DNA of 64,000 nucleotides from Branchiostoma floridae. Lineage: Eukaryota > Chordata > Leptocardii > Amphioxiformes > Branchiostomatidae. The notes under the pieces were generated by a model. That model saw only the letters and a list, made by a program, of their open reading frames with translations. It was not told the DNA's origin and ran no database searches. Where the stretch lies: positions 405,473 through 469,472 of the forward strand of contig NC_049987.1 in assembly GCF_000003815.2 (NCBI RefSeq). Reading direction: 5' to 3'. Below, one piece after another: positions 3,031 through 14,700 of the stretch (position 1 is its first letter; each line of letters starts with the position of its first letter). The position numbers and the translations under genes are program-made.

Positions 3031-5632
3031 TGCCTCCTATTGATATACGACGGTACTGCAGTCAGTGTTTCCTAGTGATAGAGGAGGGTACTGCAGTGTG
3101 GGTACTTCAAAGAGGATTATACCTCACTGACTCGACCTTGTTCAGGGAGAGTACAATATGCAGTATTCCTGGGAATCGCTAGATGGTGCACACATACAAA
3201 GAAAAGAAAAGCAAAGCATGATGGGACCTCACGTGATGACGCCCCTTCCCAATCATCATTTCCTTTTGTGCTTCGCGCAAGGTGCACGCATCGAGTTTGC
3301 TCCGGTACGATCCGGTAGTGACTCAGTTTTTCGTTGTTGGCTACGAGAAGAACCACTTTCGGCGCACCATGCCGCCGATAGGGTAAGCCCCTGTCGGCCG
3401 GCTACTATCGTCGCAGCAGGCCGTAAGACCGGGAAGGGTGAAAAGCCCCTATCGGCGGGCTACTATCGGTACTGGCGGTCGAGCTTAGCGCTCAAGGCTT
3501 GCCAGGCGCTGGGAAGGACCAAAAGGCCCTTTCGGCGCAACATGCACGGGAAGAATTGGCCAAGCATGCCGTAGAACCTGGAGGTTATCGGCGAGGCTAC
3601 GTATACAGTCGGCCGTCATACCTTGTGCCTTACACGGAGCTGGCATTATCGGCGCACCAGGCCGAAAAACCTGGAGGATAGCGCAGCCACAGACGGCCGC
3701 TATGGCCATGGTGCCCGAGGTTGAGGCACTGGCCCTTTCGGTGCAGCAGGCACGGAGAATTGAGGTAATTCTTTGCGCCAGGTGACGCTAAAGATTCGAG
3801 AACGGTGGAAGACTGTTCTCGTGGCTCCATCCATATTCAGAAGGAGCGGCAGCCGCCGTGCCACGTGGGCCGATCGGGGTAATCGACATCTCAATGGATA
3901 CTGTAAGTAGATTACGGGCTCCGGTCGCTCCGTTATGGTTGCTCGGATAAGCTTCCATGTTGAACACGCTGTTAGGCATGTTGCCGTTGCATTCTACGCT
4001 CGTCTAGGAGGAGCGTCCAGCAGTTTTCCCCATAATTTAAAGTCGTTTTATGAGCGGTTGACTTAGGAAAGACGTCAATCGGCACAGAAAGGGGCCTCCC
4101 CTTCTTCTTCTGCTGACTATGATACGTCGCAGTTGTCTGACAAGAGTAGCTCCAGGTGAATAAAATATTGGGAGCTTATGTTAAAGCTTGTCCCTGAGGG
4201 AAGCTTTTTTATGGCAATAAAGTTATCAATCATTTAGCCATACTAGAAATGTGTGTCCGTAATTAGCATTATCACGGAGAATGCTCCACAAAGACAATTG
4301 ACGAAATTGAATTCGTCTGGGACGTTGTGTGACTAGTCACGCACGTAGTTAATACACATGTATGTTCAACGTCTGGCTCTTTGTTGTTACTTTAGACAAC
4401 AAGATTTAACATGTTTCATGTTGACGAGTCTAACATGTTTTGGTAGTCTTGATAGAATATTGTTCTTTACGAGGAACACGTGTCCTTTCTAATAAACCAT
4501 TGTTATGCAAACAATGCAAACATTGCGAATGCTGCCGGCAAATGGTCGGCGGTATTCCTCCGAACTCCGCTCACTCAGGATTGACCGTCCCGGGCGTGGT
4601 TGCGGAGCATTCTTATGATTCTACTTCTTCCTGGTAAGTATGTTCCAGAAGATGGGAAGAAGGAGCTCTGTGTGCTTCACGGAACTTCAGGTAACATTAT
4701 TGTGTTTACCTACTTACCGGCTACGATTAAAACGATTGTTTACCTTTTTGCTGTTCGGCACGGCCTTATCACAAGAGCCGACAATGGAGTTTTGTTGTGT
4801 TCATTATAGTGCAAACAGACAATATAGTCTGAACATGGCGGACACTTGTCAGTTATACACTGTTTAGCCTTGCGTCCACATCGCTCGGCTTGAAAGTATC
4901 CTCATCATTCTTAGCAAAATTGTTGGTGTTTGACACCGGAACGTTGTCTTCTTCCTGTTGTTTTAGGATGAAGAAAATATTAACCACGTTCTTTAACTGG
5001 TTGATTAACTATTATATGCCGACCATCTGAGCATTTGTATACAGTTGCTCGTCTTGGCTCGCCACGTGCTCGTCCTGGACTGGCGGGGATTCCCAGTCAC
5101 CAGAGCAGGGGCTATTGAGGTAGCCAATCAGGTAAACTTATCCTCGATCCAATCAAGGACACTACCGTTCGAATATTGTAGACGTTCAATACCTCGTATG
5201 CAGGTGTGAAACCTGTTATTCTTGCCAGTAGACTTACGGTCCTAGTTACCGAATCCACAATCCACAGTCGGATGTTTATAAATACCGATGGCTAATGTTG
5301 TATCAGAAGTGCGATTCTTGTTTAAATCGCTAGAGGACCCCATTAAAGGGTCAAAAGGTCATTGGTTACATTTTGGCCGCCATTATTTACGTTCCAGGCT
5401 CAGGCTACAATACGGCATTTCCTATGCATATGCTTAACAACAGGGATCATGGGAGAAAGAGGCTGTCAAAAATCACCTACCGGACTTTTAGAACATGAAA
5501 AACTCACATTGGCATGGTTGTCAGCCCTCTAAAGATTAATTTGACGGAAAAAAAAAGGAAAAATTTACGGTGGAATCATGTAATACGATATCAAAACATA
5601 GGGGGTGGCCTTTTCAGCCCTTGTGACTGCCT
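3031..5632. other. No firm gene; imperfect GC-rich repeats at 3340-3790
   Basis: No exon of the flanking HECTD4-like gene was recognised here. Between 3340 and 3790 phrases such as CCCTTTCGGCGCA, TATCGGCGCACCAGG and CCTTTCGGTGCAGCAGG recur imperfectly. Short readings of them (LSAHHA, LSAQHA, LSAHQA, LSVQQA) look alike but lie in separate short frames, so a decayed protein-coding repeat or transposon is possible. A stretch ending in a good donor (CTG|GTAAGT near 4632) was seen at 4520-4632, but nothing identifies it. Confidence 0.4.
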
Positions 5633-5732
5633 NNNNNNNNNNNNNNNNNNNNNNNNNNNNNNNNNNNNNNNNNNNNNNNNNNNNNNNNNNNNNNNNNNNN
5701 NNNNNNNNNNNNNNNNNNNNNNNNNNNNNNNN
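5633..5732. other. Assembly gap, 100 N
   Basis: Exactly 100 N, the usual placeholder for a gap of unknown size, so order and orientation across it may be uncertain. Confidence 0.99.
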
Positions 5733-6646
5733 CACAAATATTGCTACAAATCTGGTTTTCAACACAATATAGAAGCTACAACCCTTACCTATAAGATGCA
5801 CCTCCAAAATACAAAAATATCCCAAGGAAAACATTTCTACAGCCACTTTTCCCAAGCCTACCTAAGCATTCTGAGGGCACTAAAACTGGGACATCTGCGC
5901 AAGTCCGGAAATACCGAAATTTGCCCTGTCACCCCCCTGAACTTGAGAATTAACAGATGACAACCCTACCAAACAATGATGAAAGTAGTTTTCAACAACT
6001 TCTCCTTGTTTGAAAAAATTTCAATGAAATATGACTGCGCAGCAATGATTTTCCTGACAAGTGTCAATGGCTGTTTTCAAATGCTGACAAGGCAGTGGGT
6101 GGGGAGGGAAGTGGATCAAAGTGCCAACATGGATGAGGTCAAAAATTGTGAAAAAAAGACACAGACAATGTCAACCACTGGTAACCACTGGTCACTCTGA
6201 TAGATCTACATGCTTTCCTCTGTTTTGGACTTAAAATTTCTTCTTTTTTGAACTTTGGAAATATGTATAATACAAAAATGAATACCAGAATCTCACCTTT
6301 ATGTAATAGATAGATGATGGGCGTGGCTTGATTATGTGGAAATAGGGGTTGCCCCACCCACAAGGGGGTTCTTTTAACACCCGAGGCGAAGCACCTGGCA
6401 CCAGAATTACCACATGGTGTGGTTTATGGCTCCTGGCACCAGATGTGTGTGGTCTTGCAGATTTTCCCGCTAGAATTTTTCTGCTTGTTAAGCCCAGCAG
6501 TCTGCTCCCAGTCTCACACGGGAAGGACACTGTGAGGGAGCGTGGTGTGTCTATCATGGATCTTAACTTCGACTTGGGACTTGACGATTTGTTGAATCCT
6601 GTTGAATCTGAGGATCTCAGCTTTGGTATCCAGTTTTTCCAGTATG
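5733..6646 (+). other. No firm gene; possible start of an ORF at 6556
   Basis: Mostly AT-rich sequence with nothing recognised. At 6556 an ATG opens a short acidic frame (MDLNFDLGLDDLLN and onward) that runs into the gap at 6647. It could be the first exon of a gene or an accessory ORF of the transposon downstream. There is too little sequence to tell. Confidence 0.25.
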
Positions 6647-7084
6647 NNNNNNNNNNNNNNNNNNNNNNNNNNNNNNNNNNNNNNNNNNNNNNNNNNNNNN
6701 NNNNNNNNNNNNNNNNNNNNNNNNNNNNNNNNNNNNNNNNNNNNNNNNNNNNNNNNNNNNNNNNNNNNNNNNNNNNNNNNNNNNNNNNNNNNNNNNNNNN
6801 NNNNNNNNNNNNNNNNNNNNNNNNNNNNNNNNNNNNNNNNNNNNNNNNNNNNNNNNNNNNNNNNNNNNNNNNNNNNNNNNNNNNNNNNNNNNNNNNNNNN
6901 NNNNNNNNNNNNNNNNNNNNNNNNNNNNNNNNNNNNNNNNNNNNNNNNNNNNNNNNNNNNNNNNNNNNNNNNNNNNNNNNNNNNNNNNNNNNNNNNNNNN
7001 NNNNNNNNNNNNNNNNNNNNNNNNNNNNNNNNNNNNNNNNNNNNNNNNNNNNNNNNNNNNNNNNNNNNNNNNNNNNNNNNNNNN
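6647..7084. other. Assembly gap, 438 N
   Basis: A sized gap. The 53-bp tandem repeat that starts directly at its right edge is a likely cause of the failed assembly. Confidence 0.99.
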
Positions 7085-7310
7085 TATGGAAAGCAGTACA
7101 CTAGTTATTTTCTGAAGACCTGGTTCTTTGTAACAGTTATAGAAAGCAGTGACCTTGTTATTTTCTGAAGACCTAGGTTCTTTGTTACAGTTATAGAAAG
7201 CAGTAAACTAGTTATTTTCTGAAGATCTGGTTCTTTGTAACAGTTATAGAAAGCAGTGACCTTGTTAGTTTCTGAAGACCCCAGGTCTTTGTTACAGTTA
7301 TGGAAAGCAT
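7085..7310. repeat. 53/54-bp minisatellite
   Basis: About 4.3 units, each beginning TATAGAAAGCAGT, start at 7085, 7138, 7192, 7245 and 7299. Spacings alternate 53, 54, 53, 54, and alternate units are more alike (CTGGTTC versus CTAGGTTC forms), which suggests a dimeric higher-order unit. It probably continues into the gap on its left. Confidence 0.88.
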
Positions 7311-7403
7311 TAAACTGTTGTTTACTTTTATGACATTGAGTCTTTGTGTCTTAATCCTCTCTAATCCCCTAGGCAATTAGCACAGTGTGAGAGCTGACCA
7401 GTG

Positions 7404-7521
7404 GTGCAGAAAAAGTGTTGGATTATCTAAAAAGTGTGGTACTATCCAAAAAGTGTGGCTTTATTTTATGCAAATTTTAGATAGTACCACACTTTTTGGA
7501 TAATACAACACTTTTCTGCAC
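7404..7521. repeat. Inverted repeat of about 47-bp arms (foldback)
   Basis: The left arm starts GTGCAGAAAAAGTGTTG and the right arm ends CAACACTTTTCTGCAC. The arms pair almost throughout around an AT-rich loop near 7454-7474. Both arms carry AAAAAGTGTGGTACTAT-like text. It may be a tiny foldback element. It lies 440 bp upstream of the transposase start, but nothing links it to that gene. Confidence 0.8.
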
Positions 7522-7956
7522 TATGTGGATATAATCACAGTAATTGAAGGGCTCCCATTGGCTGAGGGATAGTGGCCATGTTCTAAGTTTTTAGAACACC
7601 TTTAATATGATATTTCTGCCTAGTATGCCACTGTCAGTATCTGAAACCAAGTCATGGCACTTGCCTGGAGCTAGTGCTAATACACAAACTCAATTAAAAT
7701 CACTGGAAAGCATCCTTTCTCATGAGAAAATGGCAAGCCACACAGTCACACACCCAGAAACACAGGCAGGCTGTGACACACACTCAGGTGAGAAATGGCC
7801 AAGGCTAACAACTCCATGTGGTACAAATTGTCACTCCCCCTGAGCCGGACTATCTTAAAAGAGCTGGTATGTGACAATTCGGCCCATACCCTGTCTGCCT
7901 GCCTTTCTACCTACCTGCCTACCTACCTACATACCTTCTCACATCAACACCACATC

Positions 7957-10001
7957 ATGCCGAGGAGAAGAAAGAAGATGAGGCTTCGACATGCCGGCCA
8001 GTTCAGGGCGGGAAACAAACCGTGGAACAAGGGTCTTACGATCACGAAGGTAACACCCATTTCTTCATACCATAGGCCAACACAAGACCAGGACAGTCTG
8101 TATGTCAACCGAGATAGGAAGGGAAACATCATACAGAATGACATTGAAACTCTGAATGAAGTGGGAACAACAATGGTGCTCCGTCATACAAAACTGCAAG
8201 GAAGCCGGATTGCGAGATTCATTGGGGAGAAGACAGACAGCGATGAAGTGGAGGGCTACCGCATGTGGCATGCGAAGACAGCGGTCCATGCCTGTGTGAG
8301 TGCACAGAGACACCACGACAAGATCCAAACAGACTGCAAGGGACTGGTCAGAGTGTCAGCCCGGAAGGAGCAGAAGAAAGGCCTGACCACTTCGGAGACA
8401 CTGGTGTGCGACGAGTGCAACTATGAATCGCATCACAGTAAGTTTTATGGGGTGGTGCCGTCAGACGAACCAGGAAAACGAGGACCCAAGGTCGCAGAAC
8501 CTAACATGGCAGCACAAGTCGCCATGTTTAACAGTCCCATAGGACCGCAAGTGCTCAGAGAAGTTGCAGCTGCACTGGACATCTCAGTGCCAACCACGGG
8601 AGGACTCCAGAACTTAGCAAATAAATACAGTGACAAGATGGTTTCCTTAAACGAGAAGGACATGGAAGCTTTGCGAGAGACGGTGAAGGAAGTCCATGCA
8701 GTGAAAGGAAACGAACCGGACAGCGGCATCCCAATAGAAGCCGACTCTCGCTACCAAAGCCCGCTCCGTTCTGGAAGGGGGAAGAAACCAGGTCAACCGT
8801 CTGGCAACTGTGTCACCAATGTAGCTGAAAATGTGACAAAAAGGAAGTGGGTCATCTGCACTCATGTCAAGAACAAGAACTGTCAACAATGTAGCAGAGG
8901 AGAGGGGAAGAAGGAAGTCCCATCCCACAAGTGTTCAGCGAACATCCCACAGTCAGCCGTTATAGGGGATGAAAGACAGGCTGCCATAGAGATTGCCAAG
9001 AAACTGATGTCTGGGCCTAGCAAAACAATTGTTGCTGAGTTAACTGAAGATGGTGATAGCAGCTTCTCCTCTGGAATGAAAGAAGTCATGGAGGAAGCAG
9101 GACTGAATGATCTCAAAGTCTTCAAAGACATTGTGCACCTTTCAAAAGCTATCAGGCGCAAGGTGAGCGGAGGCAAGTGGTCCAAGCAGATGTTTCCAGG
9201 AAAAACCCAGGAAGAGAGAAAGTGGATCAGGGACCGCTTCGGCAATGACTTGGCCATAAGGCTAAATACTGAACACGTCCTGGGACTAAAGAAGTTCCGT
9301 AACCAGAGGGTCATGGCTGGAAAAATGAAACAGGTTATGCAAGCAATTCCATATTGCTATAGTGGAGATCACAGCAGATGTAAGTCCGGTTCCCTCGTGT
9401 GCAGGCACCCATACAAATGGAAGTTTCAAGAGTTACAAGAGAAGGCGAAGGGAAAGCTGGACCCGACCGACGCTGACCTGAAGGAGTTAGGAAAAATCAT
9501 GGAGCACAGGCTAGGAAAGGAGGCTTTGAAGGTGACAAGACGTGGGCGAACCACCAACAAAGTAGAGTCTGTTAATAGACAGATTAGCAAGACATGTCCA
9601 AAAAATGTGAACAGATCTCGTACCTTTCCGGGCAGAGTGCACTCTGGACTACACTCCTCCAACAATGGAACCGGGATGTCGATAGCCCGCAAACGTGCCG
9701 CAGCCAATATACCGTTTTCACCAAACTCCGCGGTCGTTCCTGCATGGAAGGGATGGAAAAGACACAGAACTATCACCGTGCGTACAAGATGGAGGTAGCA
9801 AACCAGAAAAGACAAAAAGCCAAGACATTGAGAAGGTTTGCTTCATATGACAAAAGAAAAGAGCAGGGAACTTACAAAAGCAAGAGAGCAGTGACAGGTA
9901 CAGGTAGGGCACCAAGGAAGAAGAAGAAGGTAGACAACAGAGAACATTCATACACCCGTCCCGCAGAGCAGGAGTCACCAAGTGGATCAGATGCAGACTA
10001 A
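7957..10001 (+). CDS. Mutator-like transposase, one frameshift near the C-terminus
   Basis: A single-exon gene starting with a basic leader (MPRRRKK). The frame is open upstream to 7795, but 7957 is the first ATG followed by family-like sequence. It matches the animal Mutator-like transposase family: a CxxC pair and following histidines (LVCDECNYESHHSKFY), then RGPKVAEPN, then an RNase H-like core with candidate catalytic acids D263 (EADSRYQSP), D365 or D367 (TEDGDSS) and E439 (LNTEHVLGL), then a Cys/His cluster (GDHSRCKSG) and RVHSGLHSSNNGTG. This enzyme would cut and reinsert its own element. Near 9745-9760 the conserved reading passes from the first frame, which stops at 9798, to the -1 frame, which runs to 10001 with a lysine-rich tail. 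The nucleotide text there lacks one base relative to an open frame, and no canonical slippery heptamer is visible. A recent mutation or an assembly error fits best. Otherwise the gene looks young and intact. Confidence 0.88.
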
Positions 10002-10031
10002 GGACTGATAGAATGTAGCTTACCTAAGCAC

Positions 10032-10418
10032 CTACAGAATACAGTCTGGCCAACCTGTATGTGTCCGACATACTCCGCGGCGTCGGCAGGACTTTCTCCC
10101 GTTGTTGACAGACTGAGGCTCGTAAGATAGGTGTAGATAGTTCACACAGAGAGGTTGATGACAGAGATGAGAGACATGTATAGCTTTGTCAAGGTGCAGC
10201 TGGCCAGAATAAACCATGTAAGACACTCTATGTACAGGCCACTTCTTAGTTGTAAAGGCAGGCGTATCAGGGAACCAACAGACATTAATCCCTCCGTAGA
10301 CTGACAAAGCTGATTTCAAACCTCCTTTCCAAAAAATACATGTTGATCCAGGCTCTCTACGTATGTTAGCCTCAATCTTTCTTCTGTATTCCAAGCGCCA
10401 ATTATCTGTTTGACTCAT
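10032..10418 (-). CDS. I-PpoI-like His-Me finger (zinc loop) endonuclease
   Basis: A 128-residue ORF, convergent to the transposase and 30 bp from its end. It carries every key feature of the zinc-bound His-Me finger homing endonuclease fold known from I-PpoI: one zinc site from C27, C86, C91 and H96; a second from C111, C117, H120 and C126; the general base H84 in SHLCHQPLC; and the metal-binding asparagine N105. As I recall I-PpoI (H98, N119, C125), the spacings H84 to N105 (21) and H84 to C111 (27) are the same. HR at 63-64 in the central strand may supply the assisting arginine. It should be a sequence-specific or nicking DNA endonuclease. The start follows a G-rich stretch, and the short N-terminus is typical of this family. 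Its placement suggests a second gene of the Mutator-like element, comparable only in layout to the convergent second gene of maize MuDR. Confidence 0.82.
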   Translation of the reverse strand: MSQTDNWRLEYRRKIEANIRREPGSTCIFWKGGLKSALSVYGGINVCWFPDTPAFTTKKWPVHRVSYMVYSGQLHLDKAIHVSHLCHQPLCVNYLHLSYEPQSVNNGRKSCRRRGVCRTHTGWPDCIL

Positions 10419-10590
10419 GGGGGAGGGGGGCGTGTTACAAACTCAGAAAAACAGCCAAAATGTTGTATAATTTGAATAAACTGGTCTTCAACTAAGCCAC
10501 CATGTGTCCTTGTACTGTCCTTATCTTGTCTAAGGGTATCAAGTATCAAAAAGTTGTGAAAAAACTCACCTCATTGGTGCAACCCGTCGG

Positions 10591-10690
10591 NNNNNNNNNN
10601 NNNNNNNNNNNNNNNNNNNNNNNNNNNNNNNNNNNNNNNNNNNNNNNNNNNNNNNNNNNNNNNNNNNNNNNNNNNNNNNNNNNNNNNNNN
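10591..10690. other. Assembly gap, 100 N
   Basis: A placeholder gap of unknown real size, just beyond the endonuclease gene. Confidence 0.99.
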
Positions 10691-11544: not shown

Positions 11545-11792
11545 CTGGAGATTACCTGACATTCCTTACGGATTTCAGGTAATCTCCAGAAGTGAGGTGG
11601 GTTACACTTTGCTATCTTTCGGCATCCACTATATCATCACAATGGTACTGTTACACAAGATTTTTGTTTCCAGAAAAAATGACGTGTTATTTTTACAGAC
11701 AGATTAAAGTCTCGTGGAGTGGGAATTTAACCTCTCCCAGTTGTGAGGAGTTGTCGCACAGGGTGCAGTATAGTAGTCGTAGCACTGTAGAA
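11545..11792 (+). promoter_or_regulatory. Upstream region of copy A, conserved with copy B
   Basis: A perfect 15-bp inverted repeat (CTGGAGATTACCTGA at 11545-11559, its complement at 11575-11589) sits 204 bp upstream of the start codon. From here to the ATG the sequence is recognisably related to the reverse complement of 46428-46660 upstream of copy B, including GGGTTACAC, a TGACGTGTTATTTT box and the GGGTGCAGTA segment near the start. Shared promoter ancestry is direct from the alignment by eye; regulatory function is inferred. Confidence 0.55.
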
Positions 11793-14700
11793 ATGATGGC
11801 GAACTTTCAGCTTGTCTTCTTCTTTTCTTCCACGCTTCTGGTGGCCCTTTCGCCGACAGTTATTACAGCAGCACTAGAGCAAGACCTCGCCGACTTGGAC
11901 AGTTTTATACAATCACTCATGGAGTGTGAGAGTAAACCCATCGTTGGCCTGACCATTTCACTCGTTAAAAACGGAGACGTGGTCTTTTGCAAAGGGTACG
12001 GCAAGCGGGATTTGAACCAAGGTCTCCCGTTGGACAACAGGACTATCTTCGGCCTCGGGTCCATTTCCAAGTCCTTCACGGCGACTCTTCTGGCTAGCGT
12101 TCTCGCTGAGAGAGATGGCGTCACATTGGACACGCCGTTAGTGGACATACTGGGACACGATTTCAGATTTCAAGACGAATTTTTGACGAAGAAGACAACT
12201 CTGCGCGACGTTCTTGCCCACAGGACGGGACTTCAGAGGTTTCCGACCAAATTGTTACAGTTCGGGATGGACATAGACAGAGCGGAGCTGACAAGGTACT
12301 TGTTTTGATTTTTGTCTAGGCCACAGCAAATATTTCTAAAGTGCTTATGTCATTTAAATTCTGTATTTGCAATTTCATCCATGTAACTGGTATGAACTAT
12401 CTTCAAGTCGGTGTAAGAAACCGATTTCTGTAAAACCTCTCGTCGGTTTAACACACCAGCTTCTGTATCTGTATATCCGGTAAAACCTCTCGTCGGTTTA
12501 ACACACCAGCTTCTGTATCTGTATATCCTGTAAAACCTCTCGTCGGTGTAACACACCAGCTTCTGTATCTGTATCCGGTAAAACCTCTCGTCGGTTTAAC
12601 ACACCGGCTTCTGTATCTGTATATCCGGTAAAACCTCTCGTCGGTGTAACACACCAGCTTCTGTATCTGTACCTATAAATATCCGGTAAAACCTCTCATC
12701 GGTGTAACACACCAGCTTCTGTATCTGTATATCCGGTAAAACCTCTCGTCGGTGTAACACACAAGCTTCTGTATCTGTATATCCGGTAAAACCTCTCGTC
12801 GGTGTAACACACCAGCTTCTGTATCTGTACCTATAAATATCCGGTTTAACGACCATCCAATGAATCACACCGGCTTCTGTTTCTGTATATCCGGTAAAAC
12901 CTCTCGTCGGTGTAAAACACAAGCTTCTGTATCTGTACGTATAAATATCCGGTTTAACGACCATCTGATGTAACACACCAGCTTCTGTATCTGTATCCGG
13001 TAAAACCTCTCGTCGGTTTAACACACCGGCTTCTGTATCTGTATATCCGGTAAAACCTCTCGTCGATGTAACACACAAGCTTCTGTATCTGTACCTATAA
13101 ATATCCAGTTTAACGACCGTTCGATGTAATACACCAGCTTCTGTATCTGTATATCCGGTAAAACCCCTCGTCGGTGTAACACACCAGCTTCTGTATTTGT
13201 ATATCCGGTAAAACCTCTCGTCGGTGTAACACACCAGCTTCTGTATCTGTATATCCGGTAAAACCTCTCGACGGTGTAACACACAAGCTTCTGTATCTGA
13301 GTGTATATCCGGTAAAACCTCTCGTCGGTGTAACACACAAGCTTCTGTATCTGTACCTATAAATATTCGGTTTAACGACCATCCGATGTAACACACCAGC
13401 TTCTGTATCTGTATCCGGTAAAACCACTCGTCGGTGTAACACACCAGCTTCTGTATCTGTATATCCGGTAAAACCTCTCGTCGGTTTAACACACCAGCTT
13501 CTGTATCTGTATATCCGGTAAAACCTCTCGTCGGTGTAACACACAAGCTTCTGTATCTGTATATCCGGTAAAACCTCTCGTCGGTGTAACACACAAGCTT
13601 CTGTATCTGTATATCCGGTAAAACCTCTCGTCTGTGTAACACACCAGCTTCTGTATCTGTACCTATAAATATTCGGTTTAACGACCATCCGATGTAACAC
13701 ACCAGCTTCTGTATCTGTATCCGGTAAAACCTCTCGTCGGTGTAACACACCAGCTTCTGTATTTGTATATCCGGTAAAACCTCTCGTCGGTTTAACACAC
13801 CAGCTTCTGTATCTGTATATCCGGTAAAACCTCTCGTCGATGTAACACACCGGCTTCTGTATCTGTATATCCGGTAAAACCTCTCGTCGGCGTAACACAC
13901 AAGCTTCTGTATCTGTATATCCGGTAAAACCTCTCGTCGGTGTAATACACAAGCTTCTGTATCTGTATATCCGGTAAAACCTCTCGTCGATGTAACACAC
14001 CGGCTTCTGTATCTGTATATCCGGTAAAACCTCTCGTCGGCGTAACACACAAGCTTCTGTATCTGTATATCCGGTAAAACCTCTCGTCGATGTAACACAC
14101 AAGCTTCTGTATCTGTACCTATAAATATCCAGTTTAACGACCGTTCGATGTAATACACCAGCTTCTACATGTATCCTTGTCTATTTATCCGGTATAACCG
14201 CTTTTCGATGTAACCGGATAATTTCTATATCTGCATCTATAGCACTCGTTCTTATTGAAATGTAAAAATTTGCAATTTTTTGTTCGAAAAATAAATCAGT
14301 GAAACCTACCTGATTGTTTAGGAAAATTCCTCTTTCAACCTTAGCCAAAAATGGCAACTTATTTATTTCATACAAATTGGTTATGCATTACAGGACGGGT
14401 AACAAACGTTACCGGTAACGTTTGTTACAACAGTAAACCCTTTTTATTCAAAAGGATTAACATTATTGGCTACATCATTTAGGCATAAGTTGACGTCCCT
14501 AGGGACATTTAAAAAGTGGGCAGCATTTTGAATTCTTCGTATTTTCTCAGGCGACAGCCATCTTTTAGTAGTTGAAATCCCACCCGAGGCCAGAATAACC
14601 TTCAAAGTCATTAACCAATATGAATGTTGTGGTGCATCTTTTGTAAAACATTACAGGGGTTGTTGAAAAACAAAGGGACCATGCACTCATGCTGCCTATA

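Follow-up and report, generated by a model that had tools for sequence, protein, structure and literature searches.

A transposase and a convergent I-PpoI-like endonuclease of Branchiostoma floridae as the probable gene pair of a KolobokP transposon

The gene pair and the layout of the element

Analysis of a 64,000-nucleotide stretch of the Branchiostoma floridae genome (the window; part of contig C9 in the searched 513-Mb, 431-contig assembly) demonstrated that a transposase gene on the forward strand adjoins an intact, convergent gene for an I-PpoI-like nuclease on the reverse strand, confirming the pair proposed by a first-pass annotation of the sequence. The transposase stop codon ends at 10001 and the near edge of the nuclease open reading frame (ORF) lies at 10032, which agrees with the 30 bp previously noted between them. 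The pair lies in what is very probably a copy of a KolobokP DNA transposon spanning 5402-10590, with a left long terminal direct repeat (LTDR), an apparent nested insertion at 6305-7583, a frameshifted transposase, and an intact nuclease. The region between LTDRs is referred to as the internal region (INT). The features of the copy are as follows:

5402-5925, + strand: left LTDR, starting with AGGCTACAATACGG and ending with AAATTTGCC; exact ends set by eye
5633-5732: 100-N assembly gap interrupting the left LTDR
5926-6304, + strand: first part of INT, within the 5733-6304 match to contig C146 (97.6% identity)
6305-7583, unstranded: stretch inside INT without counterpart in the C146 copy, located by the break in the alignment
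7584-10590, + strand: second part of INT, containing both genes; 99.6% identical to C146
7795-10001, + strand: transposase gene (DDD/E, Kolobok type), assigned from PF20700, the ORFs, the indel, and motifs in the alignment of relatives
10032-10418, − strand: open I-PpoI-like His-Me (His-Cys box) endonuclease, assigned from PF05551, the I-PpoI match, and the alignment
10591-10690, unstranded: 100-N assembly gap, the place where the C146 copy leads us to expect the right LTDR

The transposase ORF at 7957-9798 (+ strand, 613 aa) matched the Pfam model PF20700, named "Mutator-like transposase," over the complete profile (1-357 of 357; E value, 7.6e-66). Translation starts at 7795 or 7957, since the open frame extends upstream to an ATG at 7795. 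The second part of INT differs from the C146 copy in 12 of 3008 alignment columns, and the sole indel among these, near 9744, shifts the transposase frame, so that the tail continues in another frame to the stop at 10001. The transposase had no match among solved structures or in plasmids, and no relatives were found in scans of viral contigs and genome contigs.

The nuclease (128 aa plus stop codon) matched PF05551 (E value, 6.6e-11), a homing-endonuclease model of PADLOC (1.1e-6), and solved I-PpoI chains (1e-4). For the zinc sites, spacing was compared using the numbering of the I-PpoI zinc ligands. Zinc site 1 (C27, C86, C91, and H96) keeps the I-PpoI spacing; zinc site 2 (C111, C117, H120, and C126) has all four ligands at a spacing unlike that of I-PpoI. 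The spacings between H84, H96, and N105 (12 and 21) are those of I-PpoI H98, H110, and N119 (PMC9587614). Thus, the earlier description of the catalytic residues H84 and N105 and of the first zinc site stood, and the I-PpoI spacing also claimed for the second site did not. In nine aligned nuclease ORFs from several families (six distinct sequences), the catalytic and zinc residues were invariant; these ORFs had been picked by a pattern requiring an S/A-H-L-C...C...H core, so the invariance of the core is partly by construction, and the pattern placed no demand on the catalytic N or the remaining zinc ligands. The nuclease of locus L027 (S-H-R-C) escaped the pattern and was separately found to be open; it likewise has the features of an I-PpoI-type His-Cys box, a catalytic H...N with eight zinc-binding C/H residues. 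The window and C146 nuclease proteins are 100% identical. Phage records matching the nuclease numbered 145 at E values up to 1 (best, 1e-4), and the annotated ones among the matches listed were HNH endonucleases. No relatives of the nuclease were found in a scan of viral contigs.

No LTDR pair was found by repeat searches confined to the window, and the LTDRs were resolved by the sister copy on C146. The left LTDR of the window is 99.6% (5401-5632) and 99.0% (5733-5926) identical to the LTDR copies there. By comparison with C146, the right LTDR of the window should lie in the gap at 10591, beginning after about five more bases, and the target duplication cannot be read because of this gap. The element ends mapped through C146 therefore show that the region first annotated (7957-10418) covers the coding core only. 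Besides a 438-N gap, the 1279 bases at 6305-7583 include tandem repeats of 53 bp and a palindrome whose arms measure 41 bp. The right part (7327-7583) recurs elsewhere in the genome, with 81 matches when 40 of 133 first-look candidates were scored, and for this reason the stretch is read as a nested insertion in INT. As a possible element end, the palindrome (7411-7515) was discarded, as it falls within the stretch missing from the C146 copy. With its transposase frameshifted and INT interrupted, the window copy probably cannot be mobilized by the transposase it encodes.

Element ends and recurrence of the pair in the genome

The sister copy on C146 (L009; 99.6% identical) is a complete monomer of 4333 bp, composed of LTDR (468 bp), INT (3397 bp), and LTDR, and is flanked on both sides by the target duplication CAC, with ends set by eye. 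The LTDR ends of this family read AGG...GCC with an imperfect inverted repeat. At five loci (L009, L023, L024, L027, and L028), direct-repeat pairs of 470-483 bp with 99.4-100% identity enclose both the transposase and the convergent nuclease; refined, the LTDRs measured 468-479 bp and the whole elements 4333-4987 bp. The target duplications, again with ends by eye, were CAC (L009), TTT (L023), TTTT (L024), TTAA (L027), and TTAA (L028). Four of the five LTDRs have RR...YY ends, and that of L027 reads CG...CG. Shared termini enclosing both ORFs had been predicted and were found; the accompanying prediction of 9-11 bp target duplications gave way to 3-4 bp. Element ends falling between the two ORFs, named in advance as a refutation, were not seen at these five loci. 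No internal LTDR motif common to the families was found beyond short, mostly A-rich words.

Searches of the genome gave 66 transposase and 47 nuclease matches, which were merged into 48 and 42 loci (same-strand matches less than 700 bp apart for the transposase, less than 150 bp for the nuclease). Twelve sequence stretches were retrieved in one batch, among which L009 and L010 alone were analysed. Among the 14 transposase loci that span 1200 bp or more, 12 had a convergent downstream nuclease within 3 kb, with nearest gaps of 240-831 bp, as expected from the predicted co-occurrence in fixed orientation. These 14 loci include sister copies and represent about nine families by our grouping, eight with a nuclease. 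Every pairing (18/18) was convergent, and the two counted as upstream were neighbours in tandem arrays. In the decayed L010, both genes are enclosed by a shorter, 90% identical repeat pair. Taken with the LTDRs lying outside both ORFs, this recurrence supports the earlier proposal that the nuclease belongs to the transposon as one of its components.

The two genes also diverged together: nuclease and transposase identities correlated with a Spearman coefficient of 0.90 (six loci, 15 non-independent pairs). The nuclease was better conserved than the transposase in all nine pairs involving L028 or L030 (e.g., 0.36 vs 0.26), the L028 transposase ORF being short at 456 aa, and the third codon position was the most divergent in 15/15 nuclease pairs and 15/15 transposase pairs. 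This pattern points to long-term selection on the nuclease as an element component.

Of the 26 nuclease loci without a nearby transposase match, 18 are shorter than 290 bp; three longer ones were examined. L037 (C13:14032001-14040000) is an internally deleted element with 483-bp LTDRs of 100% identity, the duplication TAAA, and an open nuclease; only the C-terminal end of its transposase remains. L036 and L038 carry the nuclease, and no transposase match was found in 8 kb at E values up to 1e-3. A clean LTDR pair was found for neither of them. L030 (C2:16467001-16477000) and L031 are further nuclease-bearing Kolobok-like loci. The last part of contig C6 (19.7-28.1 Mb) holds 14 of the 48 transposase and 14 of the 42 nuclease merged loci, mostly fragments.

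Multimers and nonautonomous units were also present. Beyond an assembly gap from the sister copy, contig C146 also has an INT-LTDR-INT junction, so there seems to be a tandem unit near it unless the assembly is wrong there. The LTDR of the window family gave 341 first-look candidates in the genome; the 40 scored were 88-100% identical, and by our own reading 13 of them fall in groups approximately 1.35 kb apart. At C9:9429501-9445000 (L033-L035), nonautonomous LTDR-INT' units of 1347 bp are arrayed in tandem and include INT'-INT' junctions without an LTDR, resembling those described for other species (PMC9587614). Another tandem element is located on C10; one candidate pair of ends for it was too weak and was left unused.

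Identity of the element and comparison with known systems

We are highly confident that both ORFs belong, as its two genes, to a single KolobokP transposon. KolobokP is a known lineage of Kolobok that is composite-like, with the architecture LTDR-INT-LTDR. KolobokP was described by Kojima and Bao (2022, Mobile DNA 13:24, PMC9587614; also cited in PMC12750733) as a transposase and a homing-type nuclease between two long repeats. That paper reports 228 families and KolobokP from seven animal phyla, including three Branchiostoma species; the LTDRs are approximately 450 or 660 bp long with short inverted RR...YY ends, target sites are duplicated over 3-5 bp, and both multimers and abutted INTs occur (PMC9587614). 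The present elements agree in the gene pair, LTDR length, short inverted ends, target duplications, and multimers: LTDRs stand on both sides of the C146 copy and of four other loci, duplications of the published length occur at all five, and the pairing of a DDD/E transposase with a convergent nuclease is that of the 12 long loci above. No essential difference was found from that description; the window copy adds an insertion, a frameshift, and an unassembled right LTDR. The pairing, which the first-pass annotation did not recall as described in animals, is therefore already known, Branchiostoma included, and this is not a new kind of element. The published architecture is here independently reproduced within one genome.

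Several observations weigh against this assignment. A single LTDR is assembled in the window, and the second is placed inside an assembly gap by comparison. When fragments are counted, only 15 of the 48 transposase loci have a nuclease within 3 kb, and only 16 of the 42 nuclease loci have a transposase match within that distance; 8 of the 26 partnerless nuclease loci span at least 290 bp. Two of the 14 long transposase loci lack a nuclease, so that transposases without it, the other refutation named beforehand, exist and are not the rule. One of the two, L025 (C5:28163996), is decayed and retains a left LTDR together with a 41-bp remnant on the right; the other, L029 (C14:19343203), has a transposase of 26% identity and neither nuclease nor LTDRs, and it probably belongs to another Kolobok lineage. 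L030 has a nuclease and direct repeats without a clean LTDR pair or the CCHC motif. As for the multimers, the C146 tandem junction has gaps on both sides and may be an artefact of the assembly, and the LTDR ends of the C10 element could not be fixed.

The transposase was called Mutator because of the label of PF20700. In maize MuDR/Mutator, a DDE transposase is accompanied by a convergent second gene, the terminal inverted repeats are long, and the target duplications measure 9-11 bp. A MuDR-type element, with the nuclease as an accessory like the second gene of MuDR, would accord with the Pfam name and with the convergent arrangement. We nevertheless consider it highly improbable. The ends (LTDRs with short inverted termini), the duplication length, the kind of accessory protein, and the transposase signatures all differ from those of MuDR, and no other Mutator-like element model in Pfam matched the transposase at E values up to 1, a search in which HMMER filters drop weak matches. 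By eye, D-D-E, D/CxxH, and a C/H zinc motif before the E were present in 6/6 aligned transposases, including the C146 copy, and a CCHC zinc finger after the first D in the window family. The finger reads CxxC...HxC at four of six loci and CxxC...HxxC at L028, whose transposase ORF is only 456 aa, and is absent from L030 (by eye). D/CxxH, a zinc motif before the last E, and a CCHC finger after the first D are the Kolobok signatures (PMC9587614). The Mutator affinity suggested earlier thus gives way to Kolobok, and the Pfam name "Mutator-like" here labels a Kolobok-type transposase.

It appears extremely improbable that the nuclease, as a selfish gene of its own, simply landed beside the transposase. 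Its relatives, the intron-encoded I-PpoI and, weakly, the phage HNH endonucleases, would suit such an origin, as would the 26 of 42 nuclease loci without a transposase match within 3 kb; identical placement and orientation at the long loci, enclosure of both genes by the same LTDRs, and the correlated divergence argue against it. Compared with I-PpoI, the window nuclease shares the spacing of the catalytic H and N and the first zinc site. It differs in being shorter (128 vs approximately 163 residues), in being encoded by a DNA transposon rather than an intron, and in the second zinc-site spacing.

Possible nuclease targets and neighbouring features

Under the KolobokP assignment, the short inverted termini of the individual LTDRs would be the sites of transposase action, and insertion of the element would duplicate 3-4 bp of target sequence. 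The activity of the nuclease is a prediction, as is its target. Most likely it would cut the DNA of the element itself, within an LTDR or at abutting LTDR ends. Such a cut may stimulate recombination between LTDRs and give rise to multimers and solo LTDRs; alternatively, it may let a circle join an LTDR. Kojima and Bao likewise proposed that the enzyme cuts within LTDRs or where ends abut, with induced unequal crossover or the insertion of circles as the outcome (PMC9587614).

A possible but doubtful alternative is that the nuclease would serve transposition directly, by trimming ends or cutting the circle formed when ends join, instead of cutting inside LTDRs to induce unequal crossover. I-PpoI leaves TTAA 3' overhangs (PMC9587614) and recognizes the site CTCTCTTAAGGTAGC (PMC6294500), and the L028 LTDR ends with TTAA would join as GCGACC-TTAA-GGTAGC, the right half of which is that of the I-PpoI site. 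As a hint at the target, this likeness is weak, because once TTAA and GG are taken as given, agreement at four further bases is expected by chance at approximately 12/256 (about 1 in 20) for the 12 LTDR ends inspected. It was seen in one family only, and the other families differ in ends and duplications. We regard as improbable a further proposal, that a predicted self-targeting nuclease would cut the junction of two abutting LTDR ends, in circles or tandem units, thereby reopening circles and driving array growth. Consistent with it, the joined ends of L028 would contain the I-PpoI-like half site TTAAGGTAGC, and L037 retains an open nuclease between identical LTDRs despite the loss of most of its transposase. 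For the question of the nuclease target, material is provided by the several families in which the nuclease is open and the LTDR ends are defined, together with the L028 ends and L037.

Outside the element, approximately 1 kb beyond its end, an open frame at 11583-12305 contains a Beta-lactamase family domain (PF00144; E value, 2.1e-21) and is likely an exon of a host gene. A tandem array at 12430-14117 consists of approximately 33 copies of a 50-bp unit or, alternatively, has a 306-bp period.
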